Origin: Botryosphaeria dothidea
Taxonomy: Eukaryota; Ascomycota; Dothideomycetes; Botryosphaeriales; Botryosphaeriaceae
Assembly (NCBI GenBank): GCA_011503125.2
Contig: WWBZ02000062.1
Coordinates: 1,922,001 to 1,986,000, forward strand
DNA length: 64,000 bases
Direction of reading: 5' to 3'
The first letter of the stretch is position 1; each line of letters opens with the position of its first letter. The position numbers and the translations under genes are program-made. Shown here piece by piece: positions 1 through 56,037 of the stretch. The notes under the pieces are model-generated. The model saw only the letters and a program-made list of their open reading frames with translations. It made no database searches and was not told the DNA's origin.

Positions 1-109
1 AAGGATTCTAACCGAAGATTGAGCGGTCATCAGCAAAGCCTTCTGACCAATCCCAATCTTTCAGATACCTATGTACAATCACTTGACAAAAGTTCTCGCG
101 TGATTAAGC

Positions 110-131
110 GAGACGCGTCAAAACGCGTCTC
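110..131. repeat. Perfect 9-bp inverted repeat upstream of the transposase
   Basis: The arms gagacgcgt (110-118) and acgcgtctc (123-131) are perfectly complementary around a 4-base loop. It lies 35 bases before the transposase ATG and may be a subterminal element of the transposon or a transposase-binding site. The role is inferred only from position. Confidence 0.5.
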
Positions 132-165
132 GAGCGCCCACACCTCCAATCTTCGCACCACCAAA

Positions 166-1260
166 ATGGCACCACAACGCACTCCTCTCAAAGAGCTCTT
201 TGGCACACATACTCCCAATCAACACTACTCTCCACATCAGCGAGGAATTTTACTTGCCTGCAAGGCTCTTGGCAAGAAGCCTGCCTGGTTCCAGAAGCAC
301 CTGGGCGTGCCTGAATCTTCGGTACGCTCGACTATGCAGCTCGCGCCATTACGCAACGAAGGGCGCTCCCAATTACGGACTGGGCGGCCAAAATGTCTTT
401 CAGAAACCGACAAGCGACATATTCTACGCGTGGTGCGAGCCAACCCAAAATTCACGTACCAAGAGGTCCGGGAAGTCACAGGTGTGACCTGCCATGACCG
501 GACCATCTCTCGACTCTTAGACACCTACAACATAAAGAAATGACGCGCAGCTGGCCGCCCGGAACTCACGGAAGAACATGCTGCTATCAGACTTGCCTGG
601 GCACTCGAGCATGTGCACTGGACCGAGGCGCAATGGAAGAAAGTCATCTGGTCAGATGAGTGCTCTGTGGAGCGAGGAAAGGGCCAAAAAAGGGAGTGGT
701 GCTTTCGCACTCCTAGCCAAAAATGGGACCTCCAAATGGTCCAACCATATAAAAAAGGAATAAATATATCCATTATGGTATGGGCTGGCTTTTCTGGCTT
801 ACGAGGAAGGTCTCCTTTACACGTAATGGTACGTGATCCTTTAGCTAAGAGGGGTGGCTATTCAGCCAACTCTTATCTTAAGGTTCTCGAGGAAAACATA
901 CCAAAAGTGCATAGAAGAGGTATGACTTTTATGCAGGATAATGCTCCAATTTATACTGCAATAAAAGTTAGGGAATGGTTTAAAAGAAGGCGGATAAATC
1001 TATTAGATTGGCCACCTTATAGCCCGGATTTGAATCCAATTGAATATATCTGGTTTTATTTAAAGTCTAAGGCATTAGAGCTACATCCAGAGCTTAAATA
1101 CTTAACCGGATCAGTAGATTTTATTAGAGAGAAGCTGGGAGAAGCATTGCGGGAAGCATGAGAGGCTTTGCCATAATCTTTATTTGACTCTATATTAGGT
1201 AGTATGAAGCGTAGGTGTGAGGCAGTTATCACAGCAGAGGGCTGGCATACCAAGTATTAG
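166..1260 (+). pseudogene. Tc1/mariner-family transposase, broken by three in-frame stops
   Basis: Cut-and-paste transposase of the Tc1 type. The ATG at 166 opens an N-terminal helix-turn-helix region (LLACKALGKKPAWFQKHL onward) and a second one near 430-520. The catalytic DDE core follows: WSDE near 652, MQDNAP near 934 and the hallmark PPYSPDLNPIEYIW near 1012. The spacing between the second Asp and the Glu is 34 residues (DD34E). One frame stays coherent across the whole stretch but is cut by TGA at 541-543, TGA at 1159-1161 and TAA at 1174-1176, before the natural TAG at 1258. The stops fit C-to-T or G-to-A changes (for example CGA to TGA and CAA to TAA), as expected from repeat-induced point mutation, but that is inference. 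I could not define the terminal inverted repeats. The element is most likely an immobile relic. Confidence 0.9.
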
Positions 1261-8987: not shown

Positions 8988-11900
8988 CTAAGTCCATCCC
9001 GTATAGGGACCACAGTTTGTCTGTCTGAAAAGGCCTGTGGTATCCTCTCGAACTGTGCCCATGGGATCAGTTGTCCTCAGAGTAAAAGAAACTGCACCAG
9101 CGGCATCGCCATAGATCAGTCGGATTGGCGTCAAGGATCCCGCAGCCAAGTTCATCGTGACACTATACGAGGGCGTGTTGAGGCCTGCGAGTACTTGATA
9201 GTTGGTATTTGTCCAGCCAGACACGGCGTTTGGCCCCAGCCAGAGATACCTAACAGGAAGTTCACATTAGCGTCTTTGACCTCATCGCCGGTGGAGCAAA
9301 GGGGATCACTAACCCAACGTCATCAGGCTGATGCAACGTGAAGGTCCAAGAACCCCCAGTTGGAGCGTAAAAGTAGCCTCGGAAAATCGTGGCAGTTTGT
9401 GCCATTGCATGAGTACCAGAGTTATAAACTGTACCAACTCCGGGTGAAGCAATGCCGATCCCGATATTGTCTGCTATACCCTGGAAATTCACCGTACTAT
9501 AGGTTCCCTGAGGGTTGTTGTAAACGGCAGGAGAAAACGCTGGATAATAGGGATTGGATGGGGTGGAACCGCCAGTGGCAGGGTTCGGACGGTTCGTATA
9601 TTCAATACCGGGAGAAGCTGAGCAGGATGACGGGACAATGACCTCAACAAGACCTGCACCGGTGACTTGTGATCCAGCGGGCGCGCTAGTAACAGTCCTT
9701 GCAGTTCCGGAACCCACGGTGATTGTCGTGGTTGTGAAACTGACAGCCGATCTACAGGGCGACAAAACAACTTGCGTGCAACCGCTGGGGATTGTACCGA
9801 CAAGATTGAGGACGCCATTGCACATTGCGGCGAGGAATTGACCGTTAGCCGCGTTGGTGACCTGCGGAAATGTTAGCAATCTTGGTTCTGGAACGTTTTC
9901 CAAGAGCTTCACTGACATGCAACGTATTGTCACTCCAATAGGTTACATCGATATCACTGTTAATTGCCTGTCCTGGGAGGTCGAACAAGAACGGAGAATT
10001 GGAGGTTCCACTTCGCTGGCAGGAGTGCAGTTGGCTAGAAGTCCCGGCACCGCTGCTGCAGACCAATCTTGACGATGTTGGATCGACGAAGAAGTAGGAT
10101 GCGCTGGAGAAGGTTTGAGTAAGGCCACACTCGTGCGCAGTGCCACTGTAGGCCGTATCAAGAACGTCGAGGTAGCCATAGAAATTGTTGGAGAAATCAG
10201 TCACAGACACCTTGAAGGGCGCTTGCGTGGGGACAGTGATGATAGCCACGTTGCTTGCCGATCCGGAAACCGTCGTAACGGAAGTAGCTATGAACGTCTG
10301 GCTTCCAGAGGTCCGAGTCAAGGTCAAGGATGGGTTTGACGGGGGTGTACTGCTTGACGGGTAAGGTTGACCAACAATGACATACGTTGCAGCCGGGAGC
10401 GTGCCTGCTGGGTCTGTAAATGCCGTCGCGTGATAAGTTGCAGGTAGGCCTGTGACAGTAAGAGTAGGATACGGCGAGCCAACAACCACGTAGGTTCCTG
10501 CGGGGAGAGAACCGGCTGGGTCTGTGTACTGCGTGACAGGAGTCGCAGGAGCGCCAGGGACCGTGATGGTTTGGTAAGGTTGACCAACAATGACATACGT
10601 TCCAGCGGGAAGATTTCCCGGCCTAAAAGGTGATCATCACATTTCAGTTGTCTTGTACTTTTGATTTCGAGATTAGTTTGTCACTTACGGATCGGTATAC
10701 GCAGTCTGCGTAGTTGCAGGCAGGCCAGGGATAGTGACAGTAGGGTACGGCGAGCCAACAATCACATAAGTCCCAGGTCCATAAGTCCCGGGAGGATCGG
10801 TGCTGGTCGTGTACGTAGTCGGTGGAAGGCCAGGGACCGTAATGGTGGGATGATTTTGGGCCAGGTTCGAGTTGCCAGAAGGAGCGAGCGCCGAGTTGCC
10901 GCTGGGAGCGATGGCCGAGTTTCCACTAGGAGCAGCGGCGGAGTTTCCACTAGGAGCGGCGGCTGAATTCCTACTGGTAGCGGCGGCTGAATTTCCACTA
11001 GGAGCGGCGGCTGAGTTTCCACTAGGAGCGGCAGCTGAATTTCCACTGGGAGCGAGGGCCGAATTGCCACCGGGAGCCAGGGCCGAATTGCCACCAGGAG
11101 CGAAGCCCTGTGGGATGTCCACAAGCACGTAGGTTGTAGGGATGGGAAAGAAGCCTTGAATTAAGATTGTCGAAATGGTACTTGTGAATCCCTGCAAGGT
11201 AGATATTGTCAGTGTATTTTCTACTCAAAAACCATCTTGGTTTCTTACCACTGAGCCGGAAGTGCGATAGCTGGTGGACAGAGCCGCTGGAGGCGCGGGA
11301 GTGTTGACCACAACATAAGTCGTAGGGAAGGGGTTGGAATCAACTGGGTTCGTGACTACAGTGCTGGTGTACGCGACGGTTCCGCTGACTTGGTACGACG
11401 TGCTCAAGACTGGGCCTGCTGAGCTTCGGACTGCTGAGCTCGGAGCTGCTGAGCTTGGAGTAGTCCCAGTGTTACTACATGTCTGGATATTCTGGTTGAT
11501 GCAACTCAACACATTAGAACCAGTGAGGAGATTCGAGGCGCCATTTGCGACGAAGCAGGCGGCGGCGTTGACTTGCGCGAACAAACCAAGGGCTGTCTGA
11601 CAAGTTGCCAGGCCGGGATCAAGGAGGCTGATACCGGTACGACCAGCCAATTGCTGGCAAGACGACGGGATGCTAGCGTCAAGACAGCTGTTGCAAGTCT
11701 GGACGTTGGCTGCCAGACAGCAGTTAAGGTCAGATCCGGTCAGAGAGTTGATGACGCCATCGGCGAAACATGAACCAGCTTGCACGGCGCCAAGGGATCC
11801 CAGCGCAGTCTTGCAAAGAGCGGCAGAGCTAGCACCGACGAAGCTGCTGAAGAAGCCGCTTCCGGAGAAGTTACATGCGTCAGGAAGGCTGGTGACACAA

Positions 11901-36904: not shown

Positions 36905-38255
36905 ATGCCGCTCGCAATTCAGCAGAAGGGCCCTCAGCTCATGGCCGTCTTGTGGCTGGAGACGATTCTGGCCCTGACTGTTATCTCGCTGCGGTACTGG
37001 ACAAGAAGCAAGATTGGTGGCCAAGTCGGCTGGGATGACTGGCTGCTGGTCGCGACCTGGGTATGCTTGTGTTTCCGGCAGTTGTGCCTGCACGAACGCT
37101 GACTGTTTAGGAAGTTCTTGATGTTGGCCTTCGCGATCATCTGCACTGTTGCTGCGCAACATGGACTTGGCATACATATGAAGGATATTTTGCCAGCATC
37201 CGAATGGTCCGTTGGCATGAGGACTTTCCTTATTGGACAGTCTGTCATTTCCATGGCAATGGGTACAAGTAAATGTGCCGTTGCTGTGTTCTTGATTCGC
37301 ATCTTGAACAAGACTTGGTAAGCTCCACTCCCAGTCTCGTACGTCGAGGTACTAACGGGATGTGAAGGCATTACATTGTCCTCTGGTTCTGGATCATCAC
37401 AATGATGGCCGTCAGCATATTACTCAGTGTCTGTGTGTTTGCCCAAATGGATCCCGTGGAAGCACTTTGGGATCCTTCAGTCAAGGGAACACCCACAATG
37501 AAGCTCTCCGTCATTGCAACACTCACATGCGGTATGTCCATTCCGCACCTACTGGTATACCTCGTTGGCTGACCGGAAGTTCTTCAGTGTGGTCCGCTGC
37601 TATGGATTTTTTCCTGGCAATCTTCCCATGGCTGGTGCTCTGGCAATTGAACATGAGAAAGAAGGAGAAGATTACCATCTGTATCTCCTTGTCACTCGGT
37701 GTGATTGCAGGAGTTTGCGGCATTGTCCGCACAACCACACTGGATGCTTTGAATGACTCCACTGACTATCTCTGTAAGACACTTGTTTCCCAAGTATTCT
37801 GCATGCCGTTGCTAATGTTTCTTTCAGATGCATGCTCGGACAGTGTTTGCTGGACATTCTCGGAGTTGACACTGACGATTGTCTGCGTGACCCTCCCCGC
37901 ACTTCGCCCTCTGTGGAAGCGCGTTACTGGCCAGAGCTCATCCGGATACGGCAATTACTACAAGCACTCTCAGTCCAAGGGCGGATTTCCATCTAGAGCC
38001 GAGCAGGGCGCAATCAACCTGGACTACATGCCCGGAGCAGCGAAGAAAGCCTCGGACCCCATGTATACCACCCAAGCCGGAAAGGCGTCGGTACACTCGG
38101 ACGGCAACAGCGACCGAAGCATTTTGGGTGATCAAAAGGGTAATCCGGAGTCTATTCAAAGAGTGCAGGAAGTGACCGTCACATACGACACTGTGTCTGA
38201 AAGCAGCGTCAACAACGAGTTCGGCCATACCGGATACTCGGCGCACGCCAGATAG
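36905..38255 (+). CDS. Fungal rhodopsin-domain integral membrane protein
   Basis: Predicted 378-residue, seven-helix plasma-membrane protein of the fungal 'rhodopsin domain' (SAT4/PTH11-related) family. Its members are thought to sense or signal, mostly without known ligands. Exons: 36905-37060, 37115-37317, 37368-37531, 37588-37773 and 37828-38255, in total 379 codons with the stop. Family signs are the GWDDWLLVATW motif after the second helix, conserved Cys/His in the loop after helix 3, and repeated hydrophobic helices (LVLWFWIITMMAVSILLSV; MDFFLAIFPWLVLW). The tail from about residue 275 is polar and Ser-rich and likely cytoplasmic. The start at 36905 is preceded by a purine at -3 (GACATGC). 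Confidence 0.85.
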
Positions 38256-42597: not shown

Positions 42598-44155
42598 CTA
42601 CAGGCCCCTCGGCTTCGCGAACCGCGCCAGCTCCTCATCCTTCAACAGCCGCTCCATGCAGCTGCTCTCCAAGCAGACACACACCTCCGTCCCCTCCTCC
42701 TCATTACCGACCTTCTTCGGCCTCTTCGGGTACATGAAGATATACCCATCAACCGTCGGCCGCGGGCGCCTGAGCGCCGCCGGCAGCCCAAAGCCGAAGT
42801 CTCCGGTCGTGTAGCCGGTCATGGTGCCCCACGAGGTGCCGCAGACGTCCATGCCGAGGAAGCCGTTGACGCGGATGGCGATCCAGTTCTTGTTCTCGGT
42901 GCCGGCCAGCCAGTCCAGCGTGTCGCGGATCATCTGCGGGTCGGTGTAGTCCTTGATGCTCTGGCGCACCGTCGCCGCGACGAGCGGCAGCGTGTGCGCG
43001 TCGACGAGGCGGCCGATCGGGACGCCGGGCTTGGGCAGCAGCAGCGCGTTGCCCAGGTAGTGCGGCGGCAGCGGCGGGTCGACGGCTTTGCGGATGCCGA
43101 CGGCGTGCAGCAGGTGCGTGTCGGAGGCCAGGTCCGGCGTGAACATGGCGAGGCGCGAGCGCGTCATCGCGCGCCACAGCACCGCCATGATGGAGTCGTA
43201 CGTGCTGACCCACGCGCCCGCGTCGGGCTGCTTGGTGGCGTCCTTGAGCGCGGCCAGGCCGCTGGTCGAGAAGTGGAACATGACCTGCGAGAGCGGCGGC
43301 ATCTTGAAGTCGGCGGGCGGCGGCGCGGGCGGCTCTTTGACGTGGTCGAGCGAGCGGATCTTCTTCTGCGTCGCGGCCATCCACTCGGGGGTGGGCTTGG
43401 CGTGCGAGATGAGCGGCGTGCGGTCGAGGCAGCTGGCGTCGAAGGAGGGGAGGGGGGAGGAGGTGGCGATGGCGCGGGTGTTGGCGGCCCATTGGGAGAG
43501 GAAGCCGTCGGTGCCGGGACCTGGAGGTGTCAGTGTGGGTGGCGTTGTGAGAGGGAGTTCTCGTTCATACCGTCTGAGCAGCAGTGGTGGACGGCCGCAG
43601 CCACGACGACGCCGCCGCGGATGAAGTTGATCTGGGTGACGAGGATGGGAGTCTCGTCGTCCTTGTCCTCGCCCAGCGGGGTCAAAGGCTGCTTCTGAGT
43701 GACGGCGATGGGCAGCAGCAGGTCTCCGTCCATCTTTGCGGCGGGGAAGTCCTCCCTTTCCAGAGCCTCGAAGGAGGGGAAATCATCGCTGTCGGACATG
43801 TCGTTGACAATGTACTCGACGGTGTTGCCCTTCTTCCTCTTGATCCAGACCTTGCCGTTGTTGGGGTCTGTCTCCAGCTCGCCAGCAAGGGAGCGGTACT
43901 GGCTCAGAGTGACCTCGAGGCCCTCCTTGAGGGTTGTGATGATCTTGGTCCTGTCTGCGCCAGCATCGAGCTCGTAGGTGAACTGATCAGGAGTCAGCGT
44001 AGCTGGTGGAGCATCGAACAGCAGCAGAGGCCTACCGTCAACAAGGTGTAAATCTTGGGCAGAGCATGGTCGATGTCGCTGAGCTCAAAAGCTTCCACTT
44101 CAGGGTCATTTTCGTAGCCGCGGGAGCGGACGTGGAAGACTTCCTTCTTGCCCAT
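42598..44155 (-). CDS. BAHD-type acyltransferase
   Basis: CoA-dependent O- or N-acyltransferase of the BAHD/transferase family, 484 residues. Exons: 44036-44155, 43571-43982 and 42598-43520, exactly 485 codons with the stop. The catalytic HxxxD is HHCCSD (His173, Asp177), just before the second intron. The structural DFGWG motif appears as DFGFG (418-422). Fungal members acylate secondary metabolites (for example trichothecene 3-O-acetyltransferase) or cell-surface compounds. The acceptor here is unknown. The neighbouring Zn2Cys6 gene lies upstream, about 0.9 kb away, on the same strand. It might work with the peptide cluster 6 kb away, but nothing in the sequence links them. Confidence 0.85.
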
Positions 44156-45092: not shown

Positions 45093-46758
45093 TCATGCCA
45101 TTGCTTCGCGAAAGCCAAGCTGGTAAGCGATGTATCCGTTCCAGTCCATCAACTCACTTCTGCGCTCCACCTTGATCCCGTCCACCGTCGATGCTACGCG
45201 AAGCGGCCACAGACATTGGTATCCCAGCACGGCCGCGCCAGTAGATCGAGATTGGGCATTTTGCCTGTGGTCTGCCAAGATGAAAGGCATGCTTTCGCAA
45301 ATATCATCGGCCAGCTCCAGCGTCGTCTGCTTCCAGAGGGACTGCCGCACTCCAGTCAGCAGCTTGAACACCGGATCAACAGCCTGCATCCTCCCAGCCA
45401 GCCGTAGCAGCGTATTCGCCAGGCTGATGCGCAGCGCACGGTTGAAGTTCCAGTTCGTAGCCGCAACGAGGTTGAAGTATACGTGCACAGTCTCCCACCC
45501 CGCCTTATCCTCGCCCTTCCGCTTGGGACCCACGACTGTCTTCCTCTCGAACTGCCACTGCTCCCCCTCCCCCTCTGCCCACCGCTCGAGCCTATCCAGC
45601 AACTCCTCCCCCTCCACCAACAACTCCTGCAACCGCTTCCCCGCCTTCTTCCCCGCCTTCATCCCCGCCTCCCCCTCCACCACCTCCCCCGCCCTCGCAC
45701 AAAACACCGCCACCTCCCACTCCATCTCCACAACCTTGTCCGCGACGTACCCGCCGCCCTCCCTCCACAGCGCATCCAACCACCTGCGCCCCTCGCGCGG
45801 CGGCATCCTGCCCGCCCGCAAATCCGCCACGCACACCTGCGCAAACACCATCCGAAAAAGCACCCGCCCGTCGTCGTCCGCCAGCCCCTCCTCCCCCCTC
45901 AGCCTGAGCAGCGCCACCTTCCCCGCGTAGTGCAGGTCCTGCCCGTTCCCGGCGACGTCCCCCGCCATCATCTCGAACAAGTTGAGCAAGATGAGCGCGA
46001 GCAGCAGCTGGCCGTCGCGCGACCTGTTGTTGATGTGCGCGTGGTGTGTCAGCGCGGTGCCGACGCGCGCGAGGGCGGCGCCGTAGCGGTGGCGCGCGGC
46101 GGCGAGGTGGGAGGGGGCGTTGGTGCGCGTGTAGGCGTTGGCGAGGGAGACGGCGGGGAGGGCGGCGAGGAGCGAGGGGTGCAGCGCGTTGCGGGACCAT
46201 TGGGTCGTGAGGGTCGAGAAGAGCGTGCTGGGTTGCGCGCCGAGGGCGTAGTCTGGCGGGGGGAGTGAGGGGTCAGCTGCGAGTGGGGGAAGGAGGTGCG
46301 TGGTGGGGGAGTTTACCCTGTGCGAAGTGCTCGACGGCGGTCGAGGTGATTAGGTGGGAGGATGATGGGGGGCTGGAGGGATGGGGGGGGAGGAGGTTGA
46401 GGTGGGGTTGGGAGCTCTTAGGAGGTTGTGGCTGTGATGAGGGTTGGTTAGCGCGACGCGAGAGGACTTTGGCGGCGGCGTAGGCATTTTGGTCGCGGAA
46501 GGTGAGTTCGTTGGAGGAGCGGTAGCCTGAGCAGAAGCCGATGTTCTTCAGGCACTTTCTGCATTGTGGTTTCGTTTCGTCGCACTACGGGCGGTGAGCT
46601 ATTCAGGTCTTAGAGAGTCGTAGCGCTCAATGAGGCCAAAATGAGGACACATCGGATTGCCTCATTGAGAAAGACGTGCGTAGCGTCAAGCCACTTACCT
46701 TGATGCGCTTTGTGAGACAGGTTCGACAGGCGCCAGATGGCTTCCCGGTGTTGACCAT
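45093..46758 (-). CDS. Zn2Cys6 transcription factor
   Basis: Binuclear zinc-cluster regulator of 495 residues. Exons: 46699-46758, 46317-46584 and 45093-46252, exactly 496 codons with the stop. The N-terminal zinc cluster is C-x2-C-x6-C-x6-C-x2-C-x6-C (ACRTC...KC...QCRKC...FC), with the first intron falling exactly between the second and third cysteine segments. A Ser/Pro-rich linker follows, then a helical regulatory part related to the fungal-specific domain. An in-frame ATG at 46893 would add 45 residues; I prefer 46758 because it puts the cluster at residues 11-40, as is usual. It could control the acyltransferase next door or the peptide cluster; no binding-site evidence. Confidence 0.85.
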
Positions 46759-47160
46759 TTGACGTGGAGTAGCTCCGGGAGGGACGGTCGGGATGGTTTT
46801 GGCACCTGTCGCAAGGGTAACCCTTTTAATAAAATAGAGCCGCCCGATCTCACAAGCAACCCCAAGAAATCCCAAGGGGGATGCGCCAAGCACCTCAGCC
46901 GCACGCGTTGGTGTTGATCAGCGGAACCCAGCTGGATCGGACTTTCCCGTTCCGGTAATGCAGCACCTCACAGCCTCGCGCTACCATGGCAGGGCTGACG
47001 CTAACGTCCCAGAACGGCATCGTACGTAGAAAAAGAGGCCGGAATCACTAGCTTCCTATGTTGCATACCGGTAAAATAATGGCCCGTGAGAGTTGTAGCC
47101 TGACTCCTCAAAATTGCGCTGATAGAAACATATGCCGATGCGCTCCCGATTCCTTTTTCC
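46759..47160. other. Short intergenic region
   Basis: Upstream of the regulator gene and downstream of the ATPase gene. Nothing else seen. Confidence 0.5.
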
Positions 47161-50095: not shown

Positions 50096-50669
50096 CTAGC
50101 CGTAGTATTTCGCAGCATCCTCATCCTCCGCGCGCCTACCATAGTATTTGGCCGCATCCTCATCCTCCGTACGCTTGCCATAATACTTAGCGGCGTCTTC
50201 ATCCTCTGTACGCTTTCCGTAGTACTTCGCGGCATCTTCGTCTTCAGCCCTCTTGCCATAGTACTTGGCCGCGTCCTCGTCTCCGGTCCGCTTTCCGTAA
50301 TACTTGGCAGCATCCTCATCCTCGGCCCGTCTTCCATAGTACTTGGCAGCGTCCTCGTCTTCAGAACGCCTGCCATAGTACTTGGCTGCATCCTCGTCCT
50401 CCGTGCGCTTGCCATAGTACTTGGCAGCATCTTCGTCCTCAGCACGCTTTCCGTAGTATTTGGCAGCGTCTTCATCCTCGCTGCGAGTGACCACAGTGCC
50501 AGAGACAGCACGAGGAAGAGGCACGGGACTGATGGGGATCACTGCATCACAGTGTCAGTTATTCCAGAGATATACGGAAGCTTTCTTCTCACTCACAAGC
50601 CTTGGGGTCCGCGACAGGTGCAGCGACTGCCAGGAAGGGCAGAAGGAGAAGAATAGTGCTCTTGTGCAT
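50096..50669 (-). CDS. Dikaritin-type RiPP precursor with ten Kex2-flanked repeats
   Basis: Precursor of a ribosomally made, post-translationally modified peptide. Two exons, 50597-50669 and 50096-50541, joined across a 55-base intron, give 172 residues. Residues 1-20 (MHKSTILLLLPFLAVAAPVA) form a signal peptide. After a short leader, residues 45-172 are ten tandem repeats of xEDEDAAKYYG-(K/R)R, x being Ser, Ala or Thr. Unit 6 has GDED instead of EDED, and unit 10 ends at Gly before the stop. Dibasic KR/RR sites flank the units for Kex2 processing in the Golgi. In ustiloxin and asperipin precursors the core sits just before the dibasic site, so the core here is probably the (K)YYG segment. 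It is divergent from the UstYa-type gene at 51557. It is not an alpha-pheromone: no WC...PG motif. The start lies about 90 bases below a TATA box. Confidence 0.9.
50099..50482 (-). repeat. Ten 39-bp tandem repeats of the RiPP precursor
   Basis: Nine 39-bp units plus a final 33-bp unit. The protein core AAKYYG is invariant, while third codon positions differ between units (TAC/TAT, GCG/GCA/GCT/GCC, AAG/AAA, GAG/GAA). This indicates selection on the peptide rather than very recent copying. Confidence 0.95.
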
Positions 50670-51556
50670 CTTGAATGGTGATCGACAGACTGAAGAATGC
50701 TGTATTTGCTCTCGGGGTGTCCTGGTGAAAGGAAGAGCTGGTTGTGAGCATCTGTCTTATATGCCCCTCAGGTTGTCCTTCGGCAGGGCTAGTGCTCCAT
50801 GAAAAGTATCATGTCCCATCACAAGCCTCGAAAGGGAGTTGCGATTACACCACTCCCTCCGTTTCCACTTCTCTCTCCGCTTCCAGCTCCGCAGCGCTAA
50901 AGACGCCCTCATCATCATCCAACACAGGACTTGAACCTTGCGTTCTGTAAGTCGGGCCCAAATTAGTATGTGTAAGATGCGGAGGAAAAGATCCTGCAGA
51001 TCAGCAGCACGTCCATTGTTGGTGTCCGAAGCAATATACTTCCGAAAACGGCAATCCGTGAGATCGACAAGCGATGAGTGCTGAGTGACTACATGCCCTG
51101 GATCCTTGCACTTGTGCGGAGCTATCTCAAGATAGCAAACGGTTTCTGTTAGCGCTACAAGATGGTTGGTCGAGAATCGCTTACGTATCCGCTTCCAGAG
51201 GGTAGCGCGCGACGGACTTCAGCTCCGTCAGTTTAGCCCCCACATCGCGAAATCACGACACCTCGTGTCGAATAAGCACTAATGCCCAGACTGTGGAGGT
51301 GCTTATCATGAAGCGATGGACGCAGGGATATGTACTACGGTTGATCCGGTCAACACCAAAGCTCAGCCACGCCAACCAAAGGATTCGGGCTAATGTGGTG
51401 CGTGATTTTGCTACGTCAGACCCCGACATATCGGTGTGCCCGAAAGGGACCAGGGCATCCGAGAGCATGTGGTGGGTAATCGGACTCCTTTCTATCAAGA
51501 CATCTTTGACAAGCAACCCTCTCAGACTCCAAGTGCAATACTCTCAGCAAAGCACC
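50670..51556. promoter_or_regulatory. Divergent promoter region of the RiPP cluster
   Basis: 887 bases between the precursor (-) and the first UstYa-type gene (+), so both could be controlled together. An in-frame ATG at 51293 exists, but 51557 has the better context (caccATG) and places the membrane anchor as in the family. I could not assign a specific regulator site. Confidence 0.5.
50756..50761 (-). promoter_or_regulatory. TATA box of the RiPP precursor gene
   Basis: On the minus strand TATAAG (within GGGCATATAAGACAG) lies about 90 bases upstream of the ATG at 50669. Confidence 0.55.
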
Positions 51557-52711
51557 ATGTCACTCAGCAAAGAAGAATTCCGCTCCGATGATGGCAGCGG
51601 CATGCTGCCTCTGCTTTCTGGAGAGCAAGAATATGAAGAAGAGCATCATTCATTCACTCGGAGGAAGCCCAAGTTCCCCGTTTGGCCCTTCATCGTCCAT
51701 TTGATTATCTTCTGCGCATACACGATTGCCTTTTTGGCATACTCGAAATCAGTCCAAGGAGAGAATTGTCACAAATCTCTGATCTACTGTAAGCAGAATC
51801 CATCTTGTATGACAGACCAAAGAGCTAACAGCGGACAAGCACCTGTGCGAGAGGCAGTCAAGTGGGAAAGAGTCACGTCTAAAAATGAGCTGGAAGAGAA
51901 GAATCCATACAAAGGCCCTCCACGTCCTGAGCTGGACGACGCCTGGCATGATCTCTTGAAGCATTCCAGCATCCGGGTTAGCAAGGAGGATCTTCGAAAG
52001 ATCAATCGCACTTCCATTAAGCTTGCAGATGGCTCAGGGAAGTACATGGCCGAGATCAATGCGTACCATCATCTCCACTGTCTCGTGGGTTTCAACAATC
52101 TGCTTCATTGTATATCTCCGATCTGACTTGTGCATTCAGAAACTCATTCGCCGCGTCATCTACACTGATTACTACGGGCAGCCAGAGGAGGAGATGGTCT
52201 GGACTCATTTGGGTGAGTTTACGATATCCTCAACGTTCGTCTATTATGCTGACCACAATGCTGTAGAACACTGCATGGAGGACCTCCGACAGACCATCAT
52301 GTGCAAGGCGGATTTCAGTCTGTTGACGTATGATTGGATTCCCAATTACCGCAAGCCGTGGCCAAACTTCAAAATGGACCACGAATGTGTTGACTGGAAG
52401 GCATTCGATGACTGGGCCGGTGAACGGTCTTTCTCGCTTTTTGATCAGAAGTCTTTGGTTCATCCAGAACTTGGTAAGTTTTTGTACACAATTTAGGCCA
52501 CCGCAGTACCATCTGACTTGTCTTCACACAAGGTCTCGCCTTCCCCCGGATCAACGGGACCATAGACTTCCATGGCGGCCCTTTGCCAAAAACGCCTGAT
52601 GGAAACGTCGAGGAAAAGGAGGAGACGCGGGAGGGCCATGGCACAGAGGGTGCGGCTCAGCACAAGGGGCATGACCCCACCGAGATACATGCAGGACATG
52701 GCGTAGCTTAG
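51557..52711 (+). CDS. UstYa-family (DUF3328) peptide oxidase A
   Basis: Copper-dependent-type oxidase that in known dikaritin pathways forms side-chain cross-links (macrocyclisation) on the processed core peptide. 328 residues from four exons: 51557-52084, 52140-52212, 52267-52473 and 52533-52711 (329 codons with stop, phases consistent). A single membrane anchor lies at residues 43-63, giving type II topology with the catalytic part in the secretory lumen. Both family motifs are intact: HHLHCL (171-176), cut by the first intron right after it, and EHCMEDLRQTIMC (from 201). The family-typical PYKGPPRPELDDAWHDLL precedes them. The C-terminus is a hydrophilic His/Glu-rich tail not usual in the family core. 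It is divergent from the precursor, with UstYa-type B downstream. Confidence 0.92.
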
Positions 52712-53429
52712 GTTCTCCCAAAATAGATGATCAATCAAACACATTGTTATCCCTAGATTACGACATTCACATGCAGTCAAAGCTAAGCGCATCAGGCTCC
52801 GTGACTGACTCCCACCGCGCGGGGCCTATACACGCCAACACGATAGTGAGTTGCGTTTGCCACAGGCGATGGGTCAATGCGCTGATGATGGCGTGGGTAT
52901 TCTGAGAGCGACATCAAGGGATGTCCGGGGGCGGAAACGCCGTCGGCGAGGCGGTCGGTGCCTGAAGGATGCAGCGGCTTCAGGGAGCGCCACTTCCCCC
53001 GAACTGCCTCAACGGGAAAGCCAATGCGGGAGGACGCCCCACCGTAGGCTTATCGCGTGTTAAGATACGTGCTAAATGATGCGCTACGACTTGGACCAAA
53101 GCTTGCTTGTCATGCTGGTGCTTATCACTTAGCCTCATTTGCGGGGTTCCATACGTGCGCGGTCAGCCGCTTACTGTTGGAGGGGCTCACTGCGACCGTC
53201 CCAAAATGCACGCTCAGCTCCGATAATAGCCCCATTCGGAAATCCCTGAACTCACTTCTTCCCTCGGCATTGCGGTGTGCTACGTTGGTTAGGGCAGAGC
53301 CAACCGACTATTGTGCCGGTTCCATTCTCCCTTATCGAGATGAAGCAATATTGGGGCAAGCGAGTACCTTTTCTCCCCAACTTCTCAGTGACTACGTTTC
53401 CCAATCCTGACTTTCAACCATTTTCCACC
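52712..53429. other. Intergenic region within the RiPP cluster
   Basis: Between the two UstYa-type genes. No further gene recognised. Confidence 0.5.
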
Positions 53430-54350
53430 ATGTTCTCAGATTTTCTCAGACATCTATTACCCTCAAGACCTTCTTCACCTACCTATGCACCACTACGGGC
53501 CCCACAAAACAGGGAGGATGATGAGAAACAAGATGGAGACGTGCCGTCGCAGGGCACTTCTTCCAGCGCACGAGTCACACAGTACGTGCACATGGTAGCC
53601 GGATCTCTGGTCGGAGTTTTCTTGACTCTGTTGGTCTTGTGGGCTGTCGATATCCAGTATATCCGAGTCTATCGGCCGACAGTCAAAGAGTTTGCTCCAA
53701 CAATGCCGCTCAAAACAGTCGTTTTTGATGAGCATCGGGAGCTGTACGGTCGTCCAAGCGCGGAGACGAATGCTGCTTGGGACGCCCTCATGCCACGTCA
53801 GTACCGCTTCTCGTTCGCTGACCGTACATTTTACTGATCTGTTTGCAGTTGGAAGTTCGCATTCCCGCAACGGCTGGGTGCTCATCCCCAACCCGGAGGA
53901 ATACAATCTGCGACCTGGCGTTCTGGTTCCGGAACTCGGCGTCGAGCGCTTTTCTGTTGCAATGTACCATCAATTACACTGCCTGGTAAATTAACTCCTG
54001 GTAACCGAGGAGCTTCTCGTACTGATTTGCGACAGAGAATCATACGAGACTATTACTGGGACCTCATTCAGACCGTTGAGACCGGGTCGCAAGACGAGGC
54101 GCGGAAAGAAGCAGTGAAGCAACTACAATATGAACATCCGCAGCATTGTTTCTCGTATCTGGTGCAGGCTGTTCAATGCAACGCCGACCTCACCATGGAG
54201 TGGGCAATACTGGAGAAGGACGGTTCGAGGTTCCAGGTGGATGGAGTGGGTGTCCCACACTTTCAGTGCAAGGACCCCAACAAGGTGAAGTCATGGATCG
54301 AAACGGTCCATAGTCCACCTGATCCTAACAAGACGCACCATCATGAATAA
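53430..54350 (+). CDS. UstYa-family (DUF3328) peptide oxidase B
   Basis: Second member of the UstYa family, 272 residues from three exons: 53430-53796, 53849-53985 and 54036-54350 (273 codons). The ATG at 53430 has a CCACC context; an upstream in-frame ATG at 53340 is possible. There is one membrane anchor at about 53-76. The first family motif is HQLHCL (163-168), again immediately followed by an intron. The second is HPQHCFSYLVQAVQCNADLTMEW (HC at 205-206), the form with HCFSYL typical of UstYb-like enzymes. It is divergent from oxidase A, so the pair is not a recent duplication. Paired UstYa/UstYb enzymes act together in ustiloxin synthesis, which makes a joint role here likely. Confidence 0.9.
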
Positions 54351-54751: not shown

Positions 54752-56037
54752 ATGGCGGAAGAGAAAACCGAACTCCCCTTTGGGGTGAAGATGAAGCTCG
54801 TTGCAAGCATTCCTATCATCGGTAATGCCATCCTCAGACTATCATCTACTTTTTTCCAAGTAGGCTAACATGTACCACAGTGCTCCGAGCCCTCAAATAC
54901 ATCCTCACCATCCTCTTCTCCTCCCGACCCTCCCGGCCCTTCACCCGCACCCTGGCCGTCTCCCTCGGCCGCGCCTGCGCTCTCACCATCGCGCCCCTCA
55001 CCAACCCATACTCCAACGTCCTCCCCTCAACCGGCGACGCCATCCGCCAGTTCTGCGAATCCAAGCAGCTCCCCCTCCGCTCCACCCCCATCCCCATCCC
55101 CAGCAACCCCTCCATCCCACCAGCGACCCTCCACTTCATCACGCCCGCCCCAGCCCCATCCGCCCAAACAAACCGCATCCTCCTCTTCCTCCACGGCGGC
55201 GGCTACCACTCGCCTCTCTTCGGCCCCTCCCACCTGCCCTTCGCCCTGCGCCTTGCCGCCGCCGCCCGCGCCCCGACGCTCGCGGTGCTCGAGTACGGCC
55301 TCGCGCCGGCGCTACCCTACCCGGGGCAGCTGGTCCAGGCGATCGAGGCGCTGCGGCACGCGGTGCGCTTGCCGGCCGACGGGGGCGCGGGACACGCCCC
55401 GCGCGACGTCGTGCTGGCGGGGGACTCGGCGGGCGGGAACCTCGTTGCGGGCGTGCTGGCGCACCTGCGCAGCGCCGGTCCGCACGCGCCGGCGGTGGAG
55501 GGGCTGGCGGGGGGAGAGGGGAAGAGGCTGGGCGGCGCGGTGATGGTGAGTCCGTGGGTGGGCATGCAGTTTGAGGGGGGCAGCTACGAGCGGAACGCAG
55601 GGGTGGATCAGATTGGGGTAGAGGAGATGGCGGAGGCGAGTGACAAGTGGAGGCCGGAGCGTGGGGAGGTGTGGGCGGACATGCTCGGAGGTGGTGCGAT
55701 GCCGGCGCTGCCAGGTGGTGCGGGCGGATTGGACGGGTTCTGGAAGGGGGTGTTTCAAGGCCCGGGCAGAGTTGTGGAGAAGGCGGTTGTGACTGTGGGG
55801 GATGAGGAGATACTCTTGGATGATGTTGTCGCGTTCGCGAGGATGGCGGGGGCGGCGGAGGCCGGCGGGAGTTGCGTGAAGGATTCGGGTGATGGGCATG
55901 TGCAGGATGAGAACTGCGTGCTGTTGGTCAAGTCTCCGGGGGAAGCACATGATGGAGCTTTGACTGATTTATTTGCTGGGGTGAAGGCGGAACGCTCAAT
56001 GCTTTCAGAGATACTGGTCTGGCTTGAGAAGCTGTAG
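54752..56037 (+). CDS. Alpha/beta hydrolase-3 (HSL-type) esterase
   Basis: Serine hydrolase of the hormone-sensitive lipase branch, 408 residues, two exons (54752-54821, 54881-56037). The oxyanion loop is HGGGY (128-132). The nucleophile elbow is GDSAGG with Ser206. The likely catalytic His is His380 in GEAHD, with the acid in the GDEEILLDD stretch. It has an N-terminal hydrophobic segment (ILTILFSSRP). It follows the two UstYa-type genes in the same direction, 400 bases away, and could cleave an ester or amide during peptide maturation, but such esterases are common and the link is positional. The coding sequence is strikingly C/G-rich at third positions compared with its neighbours, as is the acyltransferase gene. 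Confidence 0.85.

Follow-up and report, generated by a model that had tools for sequence, protein, structure and literature searches.

The repeat precursor and its neighbours

The window analysed here is a stretch of 64,000 nt from Botryosphaeria dothidea (contig WWBZ02000062.1, positions 1,922,001-1,986,000), and all coordinates below are window positions. At 50096-54350 it carries the gene of a repeat protein with a signal-peptide-like N-terminus and, beside it, two genes of the UstYa (DUF3328) family, referred to as U1 and U2 (Table 1). We consider this locus to be real and probably functional. Because a precursor with repeats ending in Tyr-Tyr-Gly adjoins two genes for oxidases of the peptide-cross-linking type, it probably gives rise to a small modified peptide by a known type of pathway, that of the dikaritins. 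In this type, a Kex2-processed repeat protein (KEP) and UstYa enzymes yield a ribosomally synthesised and post-translationally modified peptide (RiPP). A preliminary description, made from the sequence alone, had placed the locus exactly: the stop codon of the precursor ends at 50096 and U2 ends at 54350.

The two exons of the precursor gene are separated by a 55 bp intron (50596-50542, GTGAGT...CAG). The encoded N-terminus contains a hydrophobic 12-mer at residue 6 (mean Kyte-Doolittle 2.86), and a short linker separates it from the repeat units. Tandem Repeats Finder (TRF) delimits the array at 50099-50479, with a period of 39. Nine dibasic sites, six KR and three RR, lie between the ten units. 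The sequence before unit 1, VVTR, has no dibasic pair, and unit 10 closes exactly with YYG-stop, so that eight units are flanked by dibasic sites on both sides. The ten Kex2-flanked repeats announced by the preliminary description are thus ten in number, but just eight of them are flanked in this way. The bare YYG-stop end may indicate that the mature peptide has a C-terminal Gly after carboxypeptidase trimming. The protein has the features by which KEPs are recognised in PMC7329392, namely a signal peptide, here judged by hydropathy only, and three or more tandem repeats, each of 8 to 100 aa, bounded by KR, KK, RK or RR sites. When the genome was searched with the precursor protein, the strong matches were its own two exons only; no paralogous precursor was found in this genome, two further protein matches being weak (E 0.087).

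A detector was built that calls a segment when dibasic sites bound three or more similar units, each 8-100 aa long. It called one of the 663 open segments of the window, and this was the precursor. No call was made among 1673 segments taken from elsewhere in this genome (27 loci with 149,675 bases, some of them overlapping one another; four loci that overlap the cluster were left out), nor in 20 versions of the window shuffled by mononucleotide. A chance or low-complexity repeat is ruled out by these results.

Selection acts on the repeat peptide

Nine of the 11 residues of the unit are identical in all ten copies (10/10). Across the 11 unit codons, the nucleotide column varies in one case at the first codon position, in two at the second and in all 11 at the third, and pairwise codon differences among units are synonymous in 244 cases and not in 41. 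These patterns were compared with 2000 simulations in which an equal number of random substitutions was introduced, with the simplifying assumption of a star-like repeat history. Over the 11 residues, 7 amino-acid differences from the consensus were observed, whereas the neutral simulations averaged 36.1 (minimum 27) and 0/2000 gave a value as low. Invariant residues never exceeded two in the simulations. When the dibasic pair is counted too (13 residues, nine units), 9 differences were counted versus 38.8 expected (minimum 28). A test on the nine invariant residues alone (0 versus 29.6) was dropped because the choice of residues was circular, and the all-residue test replaces it. As the third base varies in every codon, it is the peptide and not the DNA that is conserved, and selection therefore acts on the peptide itself. 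For the same reason, a recent amplification of the DNA is unlikely.

Two UstYa oxidases

U1 has five exons (51557-51788, 51840-52084, 52140-52212, 52267-52473 and 52533-52711), the start of exon 2 being ambiguous by up to 42 bp (alternatives 51816, 51825 and 51858). U2 has three (53430-53796, 53849-53985 and 54036-54350), and an in-frame upstream ATG at 53340 is a possible start. There is no sign of pseudogenes, the precursor, U1 and U2 all splicing to open frames.

Paired HxxHC motifs mark the UstYa family. They are present in U1 (HHLHC at 154, HLEHC at 182) as well as in U2 (HQLHC at 163, HPQHC at 202), and both proteins match the Pfam UstYa profile over most of its length, above the curated cut-off. 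This agrees with the initial claim of two adjacent genes with intact UstYa motifs, placed divergently to the precursor. Towards the N-terminus of each protein lies a hydrophobic segment of membrane type, the most hydrophobic 19-mer being at residue 42 in U1 and 55 in U2. U1 and U2 share 28% identity over 121 residues, and are therefore an old or divergent pair. A search among solved structures, with U1 as the only query, gave no credible relative by sequence (best E 0.37).

Comparison with known systems

In Aspergillus flavus and Ustilaginoidea virens, the ustiloxin precursor has a signal peptide and 16 repeats, from which Kex2 presumably releases 13/14-mers, and UstQ, UstYa and UstYb yield the first cyclic intermediate (PMC6514808). 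As described there for ustiloxin B, and as in the present locus, ED precedes and KR follows a core ending in Gly within Kex2 units of 13/14 aa, and the signal-peptide precursor is accompanied by two mutually homologous UstYa proteins. The core itself differs, YAIG instead of the predicted (K)YYG, as does the number of repeats, which is ten here. Asperipin-2a of A. flavus (AprA, AprY) is described in the same source as the product of a four-gene cluster without tyrosinase, in which one UstYa homologue cyclises the peptide via Tyr side chains. The likeness lies in the adjacent Tyr residues of its core (FYYTGY), the missing tyrosinase and the small cluster; however, asperipin-2a has one UstYa gene rather than two, a hexapeptide core, and an isoflavone-reductase-like protein.

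Tyrosinase gave 26 exon-level matches genome-wide (best candidates only scored), and 0/26 lie on the contig carrying the locus (C58), as expected from the preliminary description, which reported no tyrosinase nearby. That description also reported the methyltransferase and the flavin enzyme as absent. Neither was among the 30 window frames and models scanned against Pfam, a set that covers part of the exons, the short ones not among them, and no dedicated search was made for either enzyme, so that this claim holds for the scanned set. No isoflavone-reductase-like protein and no peptidase family was among these 30 frames and models.

By the broad definition of dikaritins as KEP-derived, UstYa-cyclised peptides (PMC10512285), both a KEP and UstYa genes are present. 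Ding et al. (quoted in PMC12048977) give a strict five-gene definition, with a tyrosinase, a methyltransferase, multiple DUF3328 proteins, and a transporter or peptidase; the locus has multiple UstYa genes, two of them, and its contig no tyrosinase match. Its anatomy, precursor plus UstYa pair, supports a dikaritin-type RiPP locus well, as proposed from the outset, and we assign this pathway type a probability of about 0.8.

An alpha-pheromone-type precursor would have the same general architecture, with a signal peptide and Kex2-separated repeats. This alternative is rejected: none of the ten units (0/10) starts with the XA or XP dipeptide trimmed by Ste13, and pheromone-type KEPs stand without UstYa neighbours, apart from three exceptions, in the survey of PMC7329392.

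UstYa loci in the genome

UstYa exon matches in the genome number 18 (17 over the cut-off); joined where they lie close together, they fall into 13 places at nine loci, all of these counts being lower bounds. At the other eight loci, no comparable precursor was detected in nine stretches of about 10 kb, with a detector that would miss precursors split by introns or having fewer than three units.

These numbers bear on another alternative, that secretion of the KEP units gives linear peptides, trimmed at most, with a signal, antimicrobial or surface role, while the UstYa genes serve something else. KEPs without a nearby UstYa gene are indeed the majority (6120/7878, PMC7329392), and KEP peptides in linear form are documented from mushrooms (PMC9769878). 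Here, however, two UstYa genes adjoin the precursor, in a genome where only nine UstYa loci were detected. A chance UstYa neighbour is expected about 0.01 times by our estimate, which uses the roughly five KEPs that an ascomycete strain has according to PMC7329392 rather than a count in this genome. We regard this alternative as improbable.

Elsewhere in the genome, about four UstYa places lie within some 5 kb at C47:3854500-3874300, and no Kex2-repeat precursor is detectable in these 20 kb; this group perhaps acts on a non-repeat or non-ribosomal substrate. Tyrosinase matches on contigs C36 and C78 have identical scores and a near-constant offset (885,673 and 885,666 bases), and weak precursor-protein matches on C36 and C69 also score identically. 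The assembly contigs may therefore be partly redundant. By its appearance, the rDNA spacer of the genome is of Botryosphaeriaceae type and probably that of Macrophomina, a genus of this lineage.

Surrounding genes

The region between the precursor and U1 contains four CGG-N(0-12)-CCG matches, which are generic matches of a motif scan without null comparison. The scan of four intergenic regions gave nothing beyond such matches. Cluster membership is uncertain for the hydrolase gene to the right of U2, for the AAA, transferase and transporter genes on the left, and likewise for the Zn2Cys6 candidate, a possible regulator. As read by eye, the cysteine pattern of the latter runs across a presumed intron. 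The main frame of this candidate found no match among the Pfam families, and the AAA gene lies between it and the precursor.

Table 1. Features of the locus and of its surroundings, in window positions.
Feature	Position	Strand	Remarks
Precursor gene, 172 aa	50096-50669	-	exons 50669-50597 and 50541-50096
Signal-peptide-like N-terminus, MHKSTILLLLPFLAVAAPVADPKA	50597-50669	-	hydropathy only
Ten units [S/A/T][E/G]DEDAAKYYG	50096-50482	-	period 13 aa including dibasic pair
Divergent intergenic region	50670-51556		887 bp between precursor and U1
UstYa gene U1, 311 aa	51557-52711	+	divergent from precursor; PF11807, E 1.2e-54
UstYa gene U2, 272 aa	53430-54350	+	PF11807, E 2.1e-22
Alpha/beta hydrolase (Abhydrolase_3)	54752-56037	+	Pfam; start codon and first exon by eye
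Fungal AAA protein	left of precursor	-	Pfam scan
Probable Zn2Cys6 transcription factor frames	45096-46917	-	Zn_clus, E 0.0069, 16.9 bits, under the cut-off of 21
Trichothecene-acetyltransferase-like transferase	frames 42601-44084	-	Pfam scan
Sugar-type major facilitator superfamily (MFS) transporter	40.6-42.3 kb	+	about 8 kb from precursor; Pfam scan
Fungal rhodopsin-domain membrane protein frame	37356-38252	+	PF20684, E 5.6e-14

Further away in the window, a single open frame at 11228-32155 (- strand) encodes 6976 aa from its first Met, with a hydrophobic N-terminus, 1477 Ser and 1002 Thr. Downstream of it, at 9265-9942 (- strand), is a partial match to the GLEYA adhesin domain (E 6.6e-6), and the two together are possibly a giant cell-surface adhesin. 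Frames of a Tc1/mariner-type transposase (HTH_Tnp_Tc3_2, DDE_3) occupy 1-1158 (+ strand) and are interrupted by a stop at 541-543.

A proposed route to a modified peptide

The unit shares its length, its acidic N-terminal half and its Gly-dibasic end with ustiloxin, and its adjacent Tyr residues with asperipin-2a. We therefore propose a pathway involving Kex2, Kex1 and the UstYa pair, in which processing, topology, oxidation, core boundary and product are all inferred. The signal peptide would take the precursor into the secretory pathway, where Kex2 would cut after the KR and RR pairs. A Kex1-type carboxypeptidase would then strip both basic residues, leaving ten 11-mers with a C-terminal Gly. 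The two UstYa oxidases, presumably anchored in the membrane and facing the secretory lumen, would oxidise the Tyr-containing end. The most likely outcome would be that Tyr becomes linked to a side chain inside (K)YYG. The acidic DEDAA stretch may be a recognition or leader part that is trimmed off later. For a cross-link, as opposed to some other oxidation, we would give roughly even odds. A candidate product is a cyclic peptide derived from (K)YYG. Its specific form, an unreported minimal (K)YYG core in which the divergent UstYa pair cross-links adjacent Tyr-Tyr, or Tyr with Lys, without a tyrosinase, is put forward tentatively, and we hold it to be possible though doubtful.

UstYa homologues are also able to desaturate residues, which makes a linear oxidised peptide the main chemical rival. 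The pair would in this case desaturate or hydroxylate the unit without cyclising it, a chemical variant of the proposed pathway that does not exclude it. In phomopsin, three UstYa homologues are required both to desaturate and to cyclise (PMC10512285), which is consistent with such a product, as is the contig's lack of a tyrosinase match. On the other hand, it is without tyrosinase, and on a core with adjacent Tyr, that the UstYa homologue cyclises asperipin-2a (PMC6514808). A purely linear oxidised product appears rather unlikely to us.

Several points weigh against the dikaritin-type pathway as proposed. The EDYXI motif reported for ustiloxins and phomopsins in PMC6339444 is not found in the unit, which reads EDEDAAKYYG. 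Tyrosinase, which partners UstYa and UstYb in ustiloxin and is needed in phomopsin, is the enzyme that finds no match on the contig. The UstYa pair might also act on a substrate other than this precursor, and what the sequence shows is confined to the gene structures, the selection on the repeat peptide, the family and motifs of the oxidases, and the linkage of the genes.

A known kind of locus with an apparently new core

Umemura et al. in 2020 counted 7878 KEPs, with 838 repeat types, in 1345 of 1461 strains, and 1758 of them (22%) had DUF3328 genes nearby (PMC7329392). In that survey, DUF3328 genes were most frequent at the position adjoining the precursor, and Tyr was present in 65.6% of repeats near DUF3328 genes versus 38.2% elsewhere. 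Nine dikaritin clusters are reported in Venturia inaequalis (PMC9632046). Loci of this kind are therefore common and well described, although PMC10512285 counts only five dikaritins reported by the end of 2022. The architecture and the mechanism of the present locus are already known.

As for the core, the strings AAKYYG, KYYGKR and KYYGRR had no match in the open-access literature searched, supplements, figures and subscription papers being outside its scope, and YYG does not occur in the main text of the KEP and RiPP papers examined, including PMC7329392. Among the matches listed for RiPPs of Botryosphaeriaceae or Macrophomina, no title concerns the locus, and the words RiPP and ribosomally occur 0 times in one Botryosphaeriaceae genome paper (PMC8336260). 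The predicted core is thus apparently new, and the same repeat may sit in a published supplementary table. The novelty attributed to the cluster in the preliminary description is accordingly limited to the core sequence, given the associations known by 2020 and the tyrosinase-free asperipin-2a.

This compact locus combines one near-invariant unit with two oxidases, on a contig without a tyrosinase match, and is a clean case in which to study how an UstYa pair alone would act on Tyr-Tyr. If the proposed cyclisation is true, the (K)YYG product would be one of the smallest macrocycles made by UstYa enzymes.

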